A DNA stretch of 64,000 bases, taken from Acidithiobacillus caldus ATCC 51756 (lineage in GTDB: Bacteria; Pseudomonadota; Gammaproteobacteria; Acidithiobacillales; Acidithiobacillaceae). The stretch spans positions 1,185,549-1,249,548 of the forward strand of contig NZ_CP005986.1 in NCBI RefSeq assembly GCF_000175575.2, read 5' to 3'. The position numbers were made by a program, and so were the translations under genes. Below are positions 38,411 through 44,942 of this stretch, in pieces. The notes below the pieces were generated by a model that ran no database searches, was not told where the DNA came from, and saw only the letters and a list, made by a program, of their open reading frames with translations. How positions within the stretch are numbered: position 1 is the stretch's first letter; the number at the start of each line of letters is the position of its first letter.

Positions 38411-39748
38411 TTACAGGCTCACCAAGACACGCTCGCGCCACTGCAGCCACTGCTGCTGCAGCTTTTGCTCCAGCTTTTGCAACTGGGTTAGGCCACTGGC
38501 ACTCGCATCCGGTTCTTTTGCGACTTTGGCGACGGCCGCTGCAAGCTGGCGAATCTGTTGCTGCAATTGCTGTATAGCGACCAGTTCCGGGGCCTGCTTG
38601 CCACGCTCGCCGGCCATGGCAGCCTGCAGCTCCTGAAAAAACGCATCACCGGAGCCAAGCAGTCTGTCCACACTGCCATCACCATGGCCGAGTAGGGCCG
38701 CACGCAGCTGCCAGAACCACAGGGCCTGCGCCATGCCTATCTGGTTGAGGCGCAGGATCAGCGGCATGTCGCTGTGCTCGGGACCCGTCCCGAGCTGTTG
38801 CAACTCCTCATCCATGCCAGCGAGTTCCGTGGCCAGACTGGCGTAAGCGCTGCGCAGCGCTTCGGTAGTCCGCTCCAGGGCCTCCAGATGACTGGTCATG
38901 AGCTCGGCCGCAGCGTTGTCCTGAGCTCGGGAGAGGACGATGGCGGCCATGTCGTCGCTGGTCTTTTGCGCCGACCGATTGGCCATGCCCAGAACCTCCG
39001 CCACGGTCTCCAGAGAATCGCCGCCCCGACGTAGGTGGAGGATGCTGGTACTCACGCCCTGATCAACGGAGGCAGCGCCTTCGCTGATGGCGGCGGCGGA
39101 ATTCCGGATTTCGCTAGCCGCAGCGGCGGAGCTTTGCGCCAGTTTCTTGACCTCGTCCGCCACCACTGCGAAGCCACGACCGTGCTCGCCGGCGCGGGCT
39201 GCCTCGATGGCGGCGTTGAGTGCGAGCAGATTGGTTTGCTTGGCAATCTCCTGAACTTTGAGCGCCAGGTTGGTGATGGTCCGGGTCTGCTGAAGGAAGG
39301 CCTGAACCGTTTTCCCCATGGCCACCACGCTCTGCTCGACGAGGTCCATTTCGCCGATGAGCTCAGACAGGCGCTCATTGCCGAGACGCACGTCGCGCAC
39401 GGTCTCCGCAGCTAGCTCCTGACTCTCTTCTAGCTTGTGTGCCGTTTCTTGGATGGAGGCCAACAAGGCATGACCCTGGGCTTGCAGGGATTGCAGATCC
39501 ACCTCAGTTTCCCCCAGGTTCTGATCGCAGGTGTGATCCAGGTCGTGGATGGCGCCGAGACGTTCCAGCACCTTCAACAGGCGATCGGTGGTGCGACTGT
39601 CGCGCTGCAAGGGTCCGCGCTGCCAGCGGCACAAAGGCAAAAGACTGTTCTGCAGTTCGGGATCTTCGCGAACGAGCGCCGCGGCATCGTCATCGCCGTC
39701 GAGACAGGCGAGGAGCAGGGACAACAGAGAGCTGGTATCGGTGGGCAT
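38411..39748 (-). CDS. soluble methyl-accepting chemotaxis protein
   Basis: 445 residues with no transmembrane segment, so the receptor is cytoplasmic. The signalling hairpin tip is fully conserved ([20 protein letters not shown] followed by [13 protein letters not shown] at about residues 168-210). The first 80 residues are a small N-terminal domain of unknown type. The C-terminal 120 residues are helical, with [16 protein letters not shown], which loosely recalls a CZB zinc-binding domain but lacks its Cys. It is in the same operon as cheV and the diiron protein, which may provide its input. AAGGAG precedes the ATG by 6 bases. Confidence 0.85.
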
Positions 39749-39760
39749 GGTGCGTCTCCT

Positions 39761-40714
39761 TCAAGATGCTATGGCGCGGACGACTGCCCGGGCAAGATCG
39801 TCCGGCGAAAATTTGGCGACGTAGCCATCGGCGCCCACACCGTGGGCATGCGCCTCGTTGGCACTGCCCGAAAGGCTGGAGTGAATGACCACCGGCAAAT
39901 CGCGTAGGCTCTCGTTTTCCTTTATTTTTCGGGTCAGGGTGAAGCCGTCCATCTCGGGCATTTCCAGATCGGTGAGTACCATGGCAACGCGGTTACGAAT
40001 GGGGACACCGGCGGACTTGGCGGCGCTAGCCAGTTCCAGGAGCCGGTCCCAGGCCTCACGACCGGTCTTGGTGGCGATGAAGGGCAGGCTCAGCGCCGTA
40101 AGTGCCTTTTCGATCTGGTGGCGGGCGACGGCAGAATCGTCGGCGTAGAGAATGACGGAGCCCGGCGGGATCTGCACGGCGCTGTGCGTGCTCAGTTCAT
40201 CGCCACTGCGAAAACGCGACGGCAGCACCTGCCGAAGAATCTGCTCGACGTCGAGCACCAGGGCGAGACGCGAGGTCTCTTCATCCTCGTCGAGTCGTGC
40301 CAGGCTCGTCACCAGGCCACCCACTGCGGCACCTTCGGCGGAGAGCACTCGTGACCATTCCAGACGCACGATCTCGTCTACGTCCTCGACGGCAAAACCC
40401 TGTACCGAGCGCTCGTATTCCGTCACCAGCAGAATATTGCGTTCTTCGACCTTGCAGCCCACCACCGCCGGCAAATCGATGACGGGCAGGATCTGGCCGC
40501 GAATGTTGGCCACCCCCAGGACGTGTTGTGGTGCGCCCGGCATAGGCGTGATGCGCGGCATGACCAGGGCTTCCCGCACCTTGAACACATTGATACCGAA
40601 TAGCTCCCGGCTGCCACTGTGGGCATCGTTACCCAGACGGAATACCAAAAGTTCAAACTTGTTGGTGCCCGCCAGCTGGGCACGCTCATCGACATCGCGT
40701 AGGACGGGGTTCAT
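39761..40714 (-). CDS. cheV: chemotaxis coupling/response protein CheV
   Basis: 317 residues: a CheW-like domain (about 18-170, with HVLGVANIRGQILPVIDL) followed by a receiver domain (about 185-317) whose phosphoacceptor Asp lies in VLTDLEMPEMDGF. CheV couples receptors to CheA and may dampen signalling when phosphorylated. Because no separate cheW occurs in the window, CheV may be the main coupler of this operon. The start at 40714 is the first Met of the CheV-like sequence; the longer frame upstream overlaps the next gene and has no resemblance. Confidence 0.9.
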   Translation of the reverse strand: MNPVLRDVDERAQLAGTNKFELLVFRLGNDAHSGSRELFGINVFKVREALVMPRITPMPGAPQHVLGVANIRGQILPVIDLPAVVGCKVEERNILLVTEYERSVQGFAVEDVDEIVRLEWSRVLSAEGAAVGGLVTSLARLDEDEETSRLALVLDVEQILRQVLPSRFRSGDELSTHSAVQIPPGSVILYADDSAVARHQIEKALTALSLPFIATKTGREAWDRLLELASAAKSAGVPIRNRVAMVLTDLEMPEMDGFTLTRKIKENESLRDLPVVIHSSLSGSANEAHAHGVGADGYVAKFSPDDLARAVVRAIAS

Positions 40715-40731
40715 GGTTCGGGCTCCAGATA

Positions 40732-41484
40732 TCAAATGGAAAGGGCGCTTCCCACATCCAAGGCCTCGAACCAGTCGAGAAAGCGCTCGACGTTGGCCCC
40801 GCTGTAGATGGCCCCGTGCTGTGGGCAGAGGTGGTCGATATCCAGTTTGCGTACCCGCTCTATCCAGTCTTTCTTGGCAGCGTTGGAGGGCATCCACCGA
40901 CGGTGAAAATACTCGGCGCGGGCGATGTGTTCGGCAAAGGCCTTGCCGGACTGATCGCGGCGATCGACGTAGGGACCGTGTCCGGGGCCCAATAGGGCAG
41001 CGCCCACATCGCCCGAGAAAAGCACCTTGGCCTCTGGATCGTAAACGTGGAAATTGGCCGAGGAGTGCAGGTAGTGCGCGGGGATGAATTCCAAACGGCG
41101 ACCGCCGATGACCAGATCTGCGCCCTCATCGGGAATACCGTGCAAAGGTGCATCCAATGCCCCGTAGTGACGGATGAAGCCCTCCCAGAGTCGCGGCACA
41201 TGCCACTGAATCTGGGCGTTGCAGGCATTCCACAGGGGCAGACTGGAGGCGATGTCCGGATCCTGGTGAGAGACAAATGCGGCACGCAGACTGCTGGGGG
41301 GTAGGATTTCCATGAGGGCTGCGAAAACCTGGGGGAAGATTTCGAAGCCGCCTGGGTCGAGGATGAGCGCTTGACCCTTGGATTCCATGACGTAAACATT
41401 GGAATCGATGACCCGGCGCTCCTCCTGGTCATAGATGATCCACCAGCAGTGATCGTGAAACTCAAATACGGGGGCTGCTTTCAT
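40732..41484 (-). CDS. diiron metallo-beta-lactamase-fold protein (ODP-like sensor)
   Basis: 250 residues, a metallo-beta-lactamase fold of the flavodiiron type but without the flavodoxin domain. Metal ligands can be placed at H73, D75, D77 (SHQDPD), H140 (YLHSSANF), D159 (LFSGD) and H223 (CPQHG). Ile replaces the usual His after D77. This matches the stand-alone oxygen-binding diiron proteins (ODP) described beside chemotaxis genes in Treponema, which sense oxygen and iron. Here it sits between cheV and the unknown gene after cheA, so a sensor role is favoured over oxygen reduction or hydrolysis. It overlaps the upstream gene by 23 bases. The start is supported by GGAG. Confidence 0.75.
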   Translation of the reverse strand: MKAAPVFEFHDHCWWIIYDQEERRVIDSNVYVMESKGQALILDPGGFEIFPQVFAALMEILPPSSLRAAFVSHQDPDIASSLPLWNACNAQIQWHVPRLWEGFIRHYGALDAPLHGIPDEGADLVIGGRRLEFIPAHYLHSSANFHVYDPEAKVLFSGDVGAALLGPGHGPYVDRRDQSGKAFAEHIARAEYFHRRWMPSNAAKKDWIERVRKLDIDHLCPQHGAIYSGANVERFLDWFEALDVGSALSI

Positions 41485-42082
41485 AAGCCAGATTCTCCAA
41501 TTGGGTCTTGTAGCGCCGGATGGCATCGGCGACCGCCGCTACCGCCTCACCCATGTCCCTAGATACGCGCATCAGCGGGGCGCCAACGGCTTCCACCAGT
41601 GCGGCCTCGATGCGACCGTTGGTAACCACGTATTCCTGTTCCTCGATACCTTCCAGTAACTTTTCTACCGTTGCCAGAAGTCGGCGGAGGATGAGGTGGG
41701 CCTGTTCCTCTTCCCCAAGGATGCGCTCTGTCCAGGCTTTTCGGCTGTCGCTCAGTGACGCACAGCGAGTGCCGCGGATGCCGAGCCGGCGCTCCATCTC
41801 CAGAATGCTGTCCTGCAGCCGACCGTGTTGGAGTATGCGCATCTGCACTTCGATGAGCGGAGCGATGTCCGCCTGCAGCCGGGCTGCGGCTTCCCGAAGC
41901 CTGGCGGCGCGCTCGCGAAAGGCCTGCGCGACGACGCCGTAACCGGCCAAGGCCTTGCCGTGGCGTTTCACCAGTATCATGGCGTTAAGGGCCCTCCGAT
42001 CGATGTCGCGCAGGGACTTTTCCATGTCCCGCTGGGCTTGAAAGGAGGCATCCACCAGTTGCAGCACGGCATCCATCTTCAT
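41462..42082 (-). CDS. conserved helical protein of unknown function in the che operon
   Basis: 206 residues, nearly all helical, with no membrane segment. The pattern (VVAQAFRERAARLREAAARLQ, then EEQEYVVTNGRIEAALVEAVGA) resembles sensory four-helix bundles. It overlaps cheA by 4 bases and the diiron protein gene by 23 bases, so the three should be co-translated. A partner of the diiron protein or of the soluble MCP is a reasonable guess; I do not recognise the family. Confidence 0.6.
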   Translation of the reverse strand: MKMDAVLQLVDASFQAQRDMEKSLRDIDRRALNAMILVKRHGKALAGYGVVAQAFRERAARLREAAARLQADIAPLIEVQMRILQHGRLQDSILEMERRLGIRGTRCASLSDSRKAWTERILGEEEQAHLILRRLLATVEKLLEGIEEQEYVVTNGRIEAALVEAVGAPLMRVSRDMGEAVAAVADAIRRYKTQLENLAYESSPRI

Positions 42083-44004
42083 GGCAGGGTCTCCCGCGTG
42101 TATTGCACCGTGGCGGCTTCCAGCGCCTTCTGAACGATGCTGGCAGGGTCAAGAATGAGAACCACCTGGCCTTGTCCGGAGATGGTGGCACCCTGATACC
42201 AGTTGGGATCCGAGAGAAAATCCAGAGCTTTGACTACCGAATCCTCGGTACCGAGGACTTCGGAAACCAGCAGGAGTCCTCGGTCCGTCAGCACCCCCTC
42301 ACTGGCTTCCACGCCCAGTCGCAGTGGCCGCTGGTGCAAGATTTGGCCGAGATCCACCAGAGGCACGACGTTATCGCTGTCCACCCGGTAGACGCTCTGC
42401 CCCCCCAGGTGATGTTGCCGCCGCGGATCGATATCCAGAAGACCGTTGATACTGGAAATGGGTAGGGCATAGATCTCGCGCCGCAGGCGCAGATAAAGCA
42501 CCGGTAACACCGCCAGAGTGAGCGGAAATTCCAGCGCTACGGTAGTACCCTGTCCGGCCTGGGTGGTGAGATCGAGACGTCCGCGCAGGGCACGGGTGGT
42601 TTCGCGGACTACATCCATGCCGACGCCGCGGCCAGAGATGTCCGTCACCCGCTCGTTGGTGGAGAAGCCTGGCCGAAAAATCAGCTCGATGGCGTCCTGC
42701 TCGCTCAAACGTGTTGCCTGCTCCGCTGTAATCAGGCCCTTTTCCACGGCCTTGGCGGCGACCTTTTGGGCGTCGATGCCGTGTCCATCGTCGCTGACCT
42801 CGATCCGGACCTTGTCACCAAGATGGACGGCAGCCACGCGAATTCGAGCTTCTCTGGGCTTTCCCAATGCTTCGCGCTCGGCTGGGTATTCGATGCCGTG
42901 ATCGAGACTGTTGCGCAAAAGATGGGTGAGGGGCGCAGACAGGGCGTCGACAACGGTCTTGTCGATCTCCACCTCCTCACCGACGATTTCCAGACGAACC
43001 TCTTTACCCAACTGCCGGGAGGCGTCCCGAACGACCCGCGGTAGCTGTTGAAACAGCCTCTTGCAGGGCTGCATGCGCAGCCGCATGACGGTGTTTTGCA
43101 GATCGTTGACGGTGAGGTCCATTTCGCGAGCGATCCGCGCCATATCCTCGTCACCGTCGAGGATCTTGGCCGCCGCCGCCGTCAGGCGATTGCGCAGAAG
43201 CACCAGTTCCCCGACCTGATTCATGACGGCATCCAGGCGCTGCGCATCCACGCGCAGGGTACTTTCGCCAAATTCATTGGCTGTGGGGGGCGAATGCACG
43301 GCTTTGGCATGGCTTGGTGGCGAAGCGTTTGCCTGCTCATCCCGGACCAGGGCGGCAGGCTCTGGGCTCGGTGCCGGCGATGGGGATGGCGAGGCTCCAC
43401 CCAGCCCCGGGGCGCCGTCGCCATAGAGCTTATCTAGGTAGGCCTCGAATTCCTCCTGAGAGATCTCGTCCGTCGTCTGACCTTGCTCTTCGCTGGCGTG
43501 GGCGGTTTGGAGTCGCCCCAGTGCGGCCGCAAGATCGGCGGTGGAAATTTCGTCACTAGCCGTCGTCGTTGTTCCTGGCGCGGGTGCGTCGGCGACTGCA
43601 GGGGTTTGCTGTGCCGCGTTCTGTGCGCGTGCGGCAGTGAGCTCGCGTATGGTCCTGGCCAGTTCCTCGGGTCCAGGGCTTGGCTCCTCTCCCAGGGCCA
43701 GGGTGTTCAACATGTCGGCGATGACATCTATGCCGCGCAGGATGCCATCGATGACCGCCGGGGTTACGGCCACAGCATGCTCCCGCAGCCGATCGAGCAG
43801 GTCCTCCAGGTGGTGTGCCCAATCCACCAAGGCAGTGGCCTCGAGAAAGCCAGCGCCGCCCTTGAGGGTGTGGAAAGCACGGAAAAGTGACGCCAGAATA
43901 TTGTCGTCCTGCGGGTCCGCTTCCAGCCGCAAGGCCATATCCTGAGCCTGTTCCAGAAGCTCACGGGCTTCCGGCAGGTAGTCTTCGAGGATTTCCCGAT
44001 CCAC
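42079..44004 (-). CDS. cheA: chemotaxis histidine kinase CheA
   Basis: 641 residues. An HPt domain with phospho-His H45 (FRAFHTLKGGAG), a linker with two short repeats (DEISTADLAAAL and DEISQEEFEAYL), a dimerisation domain, the ATPase domain (N box HLLRNSLDHG, G1 VSDDGHGID, G2 GRGVGMDVV) and a C-terminal CheW-like domain. No CheY/CheB-binding P2 domain is evident; the acidic DEIS repeats occupy its place. It phosphorylates CheY (and the CheV receiver) in response to receptors. It is third in the operon after cheY and cheZ. Confidence 0.93.
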   Translation of the reverse strand: MDREILEDYLPEARELLEQAQDMALRLEADPQDDNILASLFRAFHTLKGGAGFLEATALVDWAHHLEDLLDRLREHAVAVTPAVIDGILRGIDVIADMLNTLALGEEPSPGPEELARTIRELTAARAQNAAQQTPAVADAPAPGTTTTASDEISTADLAAALGRLQTAHASEEQGQTTDEISQEEFEAYLDKLYGDGAPGLGGASPSPSPAPSPEPAALVRDEQANASPPSHAKAVHSPPTANEFGESTLRVDAQRLDAVMNQVGELVLLRNRLTAAAAKILDGDEDMARIAREMDLTVNDLQNTVMRLRMQPCKRLFQQLPRVVRDASRQLGKEVRLEIVGEEVEIDKTVVDALSAPLTHLLRNSLDHGIEYPAEREALGKPREARIRVAAVHLGDKVRIEVSDDGHGIDAQKVAAKAVEKGLITAEQATRLSEQDAIELIFRPGFSTNERVTDISGRGVGMDVVRETTRALRGRLDLTTQAGQGTTVALEFPLTLAVLPVLYLRLRREIYALPISSINGLLDIDPRRQHHLGGQSVYRVDSDNVVPLVDLGQILHQRPLRLGVEASEGVLTDRGLLLVSEVLGTEDSVVKALDFLSDPNWYQGATISGQGQVVLILDPASIVQKALEAATVQYTRETLP

Positions 44005-44005
44005 C

Positions 44006-44467
44006 CTAGATTCCTAGATCGCGCAGAATGGCGTCCACGTCATCCTGTCCCATGGCAACGGTATCGGCCTGCGTATCGTTGACGTCTGTTGGCGCGGCGA
44101 CACCAGCGTCGGCGAGCAGCAAACGTATTCGGTGCTCCACCATTTGCAGAAGCGCCAGAGCCTGCTGCAGACGCTGACCCGCCAGATCTTGGCCCTGTTG
44201 ACTCGCCACGATCTGTCGGAACACCGCCTCCAGCTCGTCATAGGCGGAATCTGCAGGGATGTTTCCCTGGCGCAGGTCCCTCAGCAGCGCCTGACCGTGT
44301 TCTACGTAAGCGATGGTCGCCAGAGTCTGTTTCCCTGTGAGTTCCAAAGCTTCCCGCAGAGGTTGATGGGCTCCCGATAATTCCGCGCTGGCCCCCAAGC
44401 GTCGCAGCCCCTCCCGTAGCAGGTTTTCGGTCCCTCCGAGCAGATCACCCGAGCTTCCGGAAGTCAT
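44006..44467 (-). CDS. cheZ: CheY-P phosphatase CheZ
   Basis: 153 residues, shorter than the 214 of E. coli CheZ. The active-site helix is visible with D94 and Gln Q98 in [10 protein letters not shown] (E. coli QDLTGQ), and the C-terminal CheY-binding tail reads [10 protein letters not shown]. The two long helices of the hairpin core are kept; the N-terminal and linker parts are reduced. It overlaps cheY by 4 bases. Its presence ties this operon to flagellar control rather than to pilus or biofilm chemosensing. Confidence 0.85.
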
Positions 44468-44886
44468 TGCTGCACCTCCGCCGCCGCCTGTTGCAGGCGG
44501 CGAAAAATGGCATCCAGCTTTTCGCGGAGCGTTTCCGCATTGAAGGGCTTGACGATATAGCCGTTGACGCCCGCCTTGGCCGCTTCCAGTATGTTTTCAC
44601 GCTTGGCCTCGGCGGTAACCATGAGGACGGGTGTATGCCGGAGCCTGGGATCGGCACGGATGGCGCGCAGCAGATCGATGCCCTGCATATTCGGCATGTT
44701 CCAGTCGGAAACGACGAGATCGAAGGGCTTCGCCCGAAGCTTCTGCAATGCCTGGACCCCGTCCTCGGCCTCGTCGAAATTACTGAAGCCCAGTTCGCGC
44801 AGCAGGTTGCGGATGATGCGCCGCATGGTGGAGAAATCGTCCACCACCAGGATCTGCATGCTCTTGTCTACTTGGTCGAGCCCCAT
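44464..44886 (-). CDS. cheY: chemotaxis response regulator CheY
   Basis: 140 residues, a single receiver domain: acidic pair D16/D17, phosphoacceptor D61 ([11 protein letters not shown]), T91 and K113 (IVKPF). The sequence [13 protein letters not shown] is typical of flagellar CheY. Phospho-CheY binds FliM to switch rotation. The start at 44886 is chosen because GAGGAGGAGCAGGAG lies just upstream; the frame extends further but without resemblance. It is the first gene of the cheY-cheZ-cheA operon. Confidence 0.93.
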
Positions 44887-44942
44887 ACTGCTCCTGCTCC
44901 TCCTCGATTTCCGGTGTGTTGAGCCGGCGTCCACGGGTGATA

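Follow-up and report, generated by a model that had tools for sequence, protein, structure and literature searches.

A tandem of two chemoreceptor tips encoded beside an oxygen-binding diiron protein in Acidithiobacillus caldus, probably a sensorless mini-receptor

RESULTS AND DISCUSSION

A Small Gene Between cheA and a Diiron Protein Gene

The window analyzed here, a stretch of 64,000 nucleotides from Acidithiobacillus caldus ATCC 51756, carries a chemotaxis cluster with the gene order CheY, CheZ-like protein, CheA, HP206, ODP, CheW-REC protein, and MCP. HP206 is our working name for a protein of 206 residues, and ODP stands for the oxygen-binding diiron protein encoded next to it. The features of this region are:

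44464..44934, minus strand, CheY-type response regulator (open reading frame list and Pfam; start codon provisional)
44006..44467, minus strand, CheZ-like protein (match below the Pfam cut-off)
42079..44004, minus strand, CheA kinase (Pfam)
42079..42082, minus strand, ATGA overlap of 4 nt comprising the cheA stop and the HP206 start
41462..42082, minus strand, HP206 gene with ATG start, 206-aa tandem-tip protein (open reading frame list, homologue search, and codon positions)
41462..41484, minus strand, 23-nt overlap of the HP206 3' end with the ODP start (ODP ATG at 41484)
40732..41484, minus strand, oxygen-binding diiron protein, ODP (PF19583; Pfam 221.8 bits, cut-off 27.2)
39761..40717, minus strand, CheW-REC (CheV-like) coupling protein (Pfam)
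38411..39748, minus strand, MCP of 445 aa (Pfam)

Both overlaps of the 206-aa gene given in a preliminary description, 4 nt with cheA and 23 nt with the diiron gene, are confirmed by the letters of the window. HP206 is a real gene, given that 26 full-length copies (the window's own included) were found in 23 of the 96 genomes searched and that changes between HP206 and four orthologues fall mainly at third codon positions (e.g., 56/48/109). The other 25 copies show 48–64% identity. Open reading frames antisense to the gene are mechanical, and searches of plasmids and of viral contigs returned no HP206 relatives. The overlap with ODP varies in length; among 78 measured named loci, for which start codons were picked by script, it is exactly 23 nt in six, the two genes overlap to some extent in 38, and they overlap or lie at most 30 nt apart in 69.

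The window's diiron protein matches solved ODPs (6qrq, E 3.2e-56; 6qnm, E 2.7e-44) and is, by these matches, a genuine ODP. Six of its residues (His73, Asp75, Asp77, His137, Asp159, and His223) stand at the positions of flavodiiron-type ligands, and none of the six varies among 24 sequences.

Both Halves of HP206 Resemble MCP Hairpin Tips

HP206 had been put down as an unrecognized protein, but profiles identify it as a tandem of two MCP tips:

41903..42004, minus strand, tip 1 core, residues 27-60 (IDRRALNAMILVKRHGKALAGYGVVAQAFRERAA), from a weak Pfam MCPsignal match, profile matches, and residue counts
41531..41644, minus strand, tip 2 core, residues 147-184 (EEQEYVVTNGRIEAALVEAVGAPLMRVSRDMGEAVAAV), from the C-half profile, hhalign register with shuffles, and residue counts

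The sequence of HP206 matches Pfam MCPsignal (PF00015) over residues 31-76, which covers the hairpin tip, at 16 bits and E 0.011, below the cut-off of 34.6. The NCBIfam search gave coiled-coil noise only (Rad50) and a single-sequence search of the PDB was uninformative, so that results came from profiles alone. MCPsignal is matched at E ≤ 0.1 by 42 of 54 diverse family members (best 9.7e-15), and the best solved match of the 54-row family profile is a soluble receptor, 3g6b (Tm14; E 1.7e-14). The C-half profile alone also ranks receptor tips first (3ur1, 1.3e-7; 4jpb, 1.4e-7; 3g6b, 3.1e-7); unrelated coiled coils turn up in both the full-family and the C-half searches.

Aligned to 24 local MCPs with hhalign, the N-half scores 81.6 (highest of 60 block shuffles, 36.6) and the C-half 52.5 (highest of 60 block shuffles, 27.3), and the two halves of the family score 25.3 against each other (shuffle maximum 20.5). 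Tip 1 corresponds to approximately residues 375-408 of Tsr and keeps the equivalents of Asn381, Arg388, Gly390, and Gly395, with Glu385 missing. In tip 2, where N-x-x-I-E-A-A stands in register with N-A-A-I-E-A-A of the MCPs, the Glu385 equivalent (E159) is kept and Arg388, Gly395, and Phe396 are missing. By these profile comparisons both halves of HP206 are homologous to MCP hairpin tips, each in the correct register. Since the second half has an in-register, shuffle-proof, and profile-detectable tip of its own, the chain consists, as judged by sequence, of two receptor tips in tandem, whereas an ordinary MCP has one hairpin per chain and forms a homodimer.

Conservation across the family is concentrated in both tips; the stalk is poorly conserved, and thus no ODP site is evident. 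Three members from Methylophaga and a Piscirickettsiaceae MAG (L219:4352-5008, L254:4349-5008, and L256:4367-5008) have a distinct, more MCP-like second tip, with the motif VEAASxGExGVSFEAV.

Predicted Structure

The helical character proposed for the protein is borne out by two AlphaFold models, both all-helical: that of HP206 (pLDDT 95.0, pTM 0.86) and that of the Methylotuvimicrobium buryatense member (L208; pLDDT 94.6, pTM 0.86). The latter has four helices (2-50, 53-104, 111-164, and 168-204). It breaks at tip 1, where DSSP finds no break in the HP206 model (helix 3-102). The loop between the hairpins of HP206 is placed by AlphaFold secondary structure at:

41762..41776, minus strand, inter-hairpin loop, residues 103-107

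Both models match designed single-chain four-helix proteins (Z 17, rmsd 1.9–2.2 over 175 residues), and both fit one chain folded as a four-helix bundle, in effect a pseudo-dimer of a single short receptor. A Foldseek search of the HP206 model against the PDB gave no match at E ≤ 0.001; generic helical bundles ranked there, and the MCP signaling domain was absent among the 50 matches listed. Toxin-like helical bundles (ClyA and AhlB, in the VIA lists) scored Z ~12–13, which is the tool's background for helical bundles, and were discarded as candidates.

Strict Pairing With One ODP Subfamily

ODP-family proteins (PF19583) occur in 78 of the 369 genomes of our class sample. From a list of 119 matches, 100 rows from 97 regions were taken up; those set aside were a row with an internal stop, a fragment, and 13 flavodiiron-like rows with weak matches (E > 1e-29), and the four other rows all have an HP gene. 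All 29 ODPs that score at least 207 bits against the window ODP have an HP-family open reading frame directly upstream on the same strand, as opposed to none of the 71 that score at most 181 bits. The dividing line of 200 bits was set after the scores were seen and falls in the gap from 181 to 207. One HP gene (L084) was missed with the first profile and found with a wider one (E 5e-12).

The pairing was also approached from the HP side. In a comparison of coordinates, all 27 short-frame matches at E < 1e-11 have an ODP match immediately downstream, and an ODP adjoins 33 of 33 family members (L034 from coordinates). The preliminary description would have been undermined by homologues occurring mainly without the diiron gene; this was checked and is not the case. 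In a phylum sample of 398 genomes, where ordinary MCPs are mixed in from about E 1e-17, short-frame matches at E < 1e-30 occur in only six genomes, all of the same class, and five of five new HP-carrying genomes have an adjoining ODP. Among the best 80 of 590 matches, the HP gene is present at 79 named ODP loci, the exception (L229) lying at a contig edge; of the 79 HP genes, two are not complete, as L214 runs into a contig edge and L234 contains an internal gap. The hosts include Acidithiobacillus, Thiomonas, Vibrio, Shewanella, Colwellia, Methylobacter, Dechloromonas, Chitinibacter, and others. ODP also lies directly downstream of HP in all 26 loci of the 96-genome search (one is split and some are cut by contig edges). 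Thus, the HP family is strictly paired with one ODP subfamily, the chemotaxis type.

Association With CheA

The overlap with cheA, from which coupled translation with CheA had been proposed, is present in the window and does not hold in general, as most pairs have no visible che genes alongside. In the 96-genome search, CheA is directly upstream of HP in 25 of 26 loci, and the remaining locus is cut short by a contig edge. At 52 of the 78 named loci, by contrast, no CheA, CheW/CheV, CheZ, or long MCP was found in the flanks examined (35 with full 5-kb flanks), che genes being called by BLAST to the window's own proteins, by which distant ones can be missed. Nevertheless, a CheA-type domain is present in all 30 class-sample genomes with the HP-ODP pair, compared with 217 of 369 overall (Fisher 6e-8, uncorrected for relatedness); this is the laxer tally, and a strict one of 185 of 369 drops 32 weak rows by eye. 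Surroundings without visible che genes, in genomes that encode CheA, are to be expected of a sensor that plugs into an existing array. A close relative from the same genus (G001, 2.0 Mb) has a match to neither HP206 nor CheA, consistent with joint loss of chemotaxis.

Division of Canonical Residues Between the Tips

The two tips have kept different parts of the canonical residue set, at positions numbered as in Tsr. Counted for tip 1 versus tip 2 in 54 members, Asn381 is found in 54 versus 17, Glu385 in 0 versus 54, Arg388 in 46 versus 5, and Gly395 in 49 versus 2. Among 74 representatives at 70% identity the corresponding counts are 74 versus 25, 0 versus 69, 60 versus 10, and 67 versus 3. 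The full set is not found on one hairpin: in a set of 140 sequences, which includes close relatives and alongside which the 74 representatives were counted, Glu385 occurs in tip 1 of none and Arg388 in tip 2 of 16. All four residues are invariant in the 24 local MCPs, although only Glu385, Arg388, and Gly395 are independent observations there, because the motif used for picking these proteins fixes Asn381. Glu391, Gly393, and Arg394 are mostly lost from both tips, and array binding may therefore be altered or lost.

From these counts, the HP tips divide between them residues that homodimers keep on both sides. Within a trimer of ordinary receptor dimers, each dimer turns one subunit toward the axis and its second subunit toward CheA/CheW (PMC4692393, in excerpt), and Glu385 locks to Arg388 of the neighboring dimer (PMC8144572, in excerpt). 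Since Arg388 has been kept for the most part in tip 1, and tip 2 alone has Glu385, a trimer of HP206 in the same orientation would be without the usual Glu385-Arg388' lock, and HP206 would therefore have to join trimers of ordinary receptors. We tentatively suggest that the protein may be a natural asymmetric single-chain receptor dimer, each tip fixed for one subunit place (trimer axis or CheA/CheW side), that would join ordinary-receptor trimers as part of a portable oxygen/iron module.

HP206 as a Probable Mini-Receptor for ODP

Because what looks like a fused receptor pair is encoded directly before ODP, HP206 probably plugs the sensor into the steering machinery. We consider it likely that HP206 is a sensorless single-chain mini-receptor, the dedicated partner of the adjacent ODP, that carries oxygen/iron signals into the CheA array. 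The two tandem MCP hairpin tips would fold into one four-helix bundle resembling a receptor-dimer tip, and at the CheA/CheW layer HP206 would stand in for one dimer amid the ordinary receptors. ODP would bind HP206, and its oxygen/iron state would alter the HP206 bundle and in turn CheA activity. By analogy with known receptors, we infer array insertion, ODP binding, and kinase control by HP206. The preliminary reading, a helical protein connecting the diiron sensor to the signaling array, holds as to the helices, the link to the diiron protein, and the plausibility of a link to the array via HP206; the unrecognized status and the novelty relative to Treponema fall away, and the overlap with cheA cannot be generalized.

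Among known proteins, Tm14 of Thermotoga maritima (213 aa; 3g6b, 3ur1, and 4jpb) is the best solved match of the family profile and of the C-half, and presumably also lacks a sensor domain. In Tm14 the profile match covers a single, central tip, which means one hairpin per chain, whereas HP206 has two short ones. ODP itself is described as an auxiliary sensory subunit in contact with its cognate receptors (PMC6978683), and two gene orders in which it is coupled to MCP genes have been published (PMC7319448, in a passage summarizing earlier work, taken to be Muok 2019). The Treponema system does have a described counterpart, contrary to what had been supposed: in T. denticola, there is genetic coupling between ODP and TDE2496, which is homologous to MCPs, has neither membrane nor sensing modules, and modulates CheA (excerpts of PMC7666581). 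HP206 likewise would be a sensorless receptor, its gene adjoining that of a chemotaxis-type ODP, and the window ODP is clearly related to the solved ODPs; compared by description, in those excerpts, TDE2496 differs as an MCP homologue from a protein with two short tips per chain.

Natural single-chain MCP-like proteins with two MCP signaling units, of function reported as unknown, are described in the accessible part of PMC4692393. Those of R. centenum, as described there, have two such units in one soluble chain, as does HP206, which is judged soluble from its sequence, but HP206 is tip-only, linked to ODP, and has asymmetric tips. The same source reports engineered E. coli Tsr~Tsr, in which covalently joined subunits form arrays and control CheA; as described there, these are full-length identical subunits with a long linker, whereas in HP206 the halves differ and are connected, at the stalk end, by a loop only about five residues long. 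CheO of Campylobacter has no known sensory domain, according to the text available of PMC9665402, and the available parts of PMC6746300 and PMC10653840 hold nothing relevant to HP206. No mention of a tandem or single-chain, short asymmetric partner of ODP was found in the open-licence papers searched. Single-chain MCPs of natural origin, and receptors without a sensor to which ODP is coupled, are already known; the ODP-linked asymmetric mini-receptor would add a new form to them.

Alternative Explanations

HP206 could instead be a structural factor of arrays, its tips binding the CheA/CheW layer and shaping or recruiting arrays, with ODP co-expressed or acting in parallel and passing no signal through it. 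Such a role would suit the overlap with cheA in the window and the adjoining cheA in 25 of 26 loci, the conserved tips on a variable stalk, and the altered CheA ordering in T. denticola arrays upon deletion of ODP (PMC7666581, in excerpt). However, the constant neighbor is ODP and not CheA, 52 of 78 named loci showing no che genes in the flanks examined, and we regard this explanation as unlikely. Clearly less likely still is an ODP-dedicated chaperone, maturation factor, or inhibitor derived from a degenerate receptor, its MCP likeness reflecting ancestry with no array function: the strict ODP pairing and the loss of part of the tip residues are as expected for such a protein, but selection has kept tip residues (Asn381 in tip 1 of 74/74, Glu385 in tip 2 of 69/74) while the stalk varies, and the pair is restricted to CheA genomes in the sample. 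That HP206 is a generic helical protein whose MCP resemblance reflects shared coiled-coil composition is hardly credible, since the weak single-sequence scores (Pfam E 0.011) and the unrelated coiled coils among the profile matches are outweighed by block- and column-shuffle controls, the exact register at both tips, the top rank of receptor tips in the full and C-half searches, and invariant tip residues.

Implications of a Probable Single-Chain Receptor

On the mini-receptor reading, HP206 would be a natural single-chain MCP-like protein with a proposed function, and HP206-ODP would bring oxygen/iron taxis, as a portable set of two genes, to hosts across Gammaproteobacteria. Receptor subunits in arrays occupy two environments and ordinary mutations hit both, which single-chain receptors were engineered to avoid (PMC4692393, in excerpt). 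The HP family looks like a natural single-chain receptor with diverged sides and partitioned tip residues, and therefore may show which residues matter on which side, offering a direct test of side-specific residue roles. If the asymmetric-dimer reading is true, HP206-ODP would equip the existing array of its host, whichever that may be, with oxygen/iron sensing.

Variants of the Locus

In one genome (G023; L005/L044), the ODP gene is split into two overlapping frames and HP206 is intact, by decay or sequencing error. Many relatives have an extra MCP gene of ~430 aa between the ODP and CheV-like genes, which is absent from the window (40717-40735). The A. caldus genome encodes a third ODP-family protein, of the other subfamily (L163, G000:C1:1465198-1465797), which is without an HP206 partner and is counted among the 71 above. 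It also carries a second, diverged HP206-ODP pair (L031, G000:C1:1918303-1918884), which sits in a second che cluster with the order CheY, CheZ, CheA, HP, ODP, MCP, and CheV-like protein.
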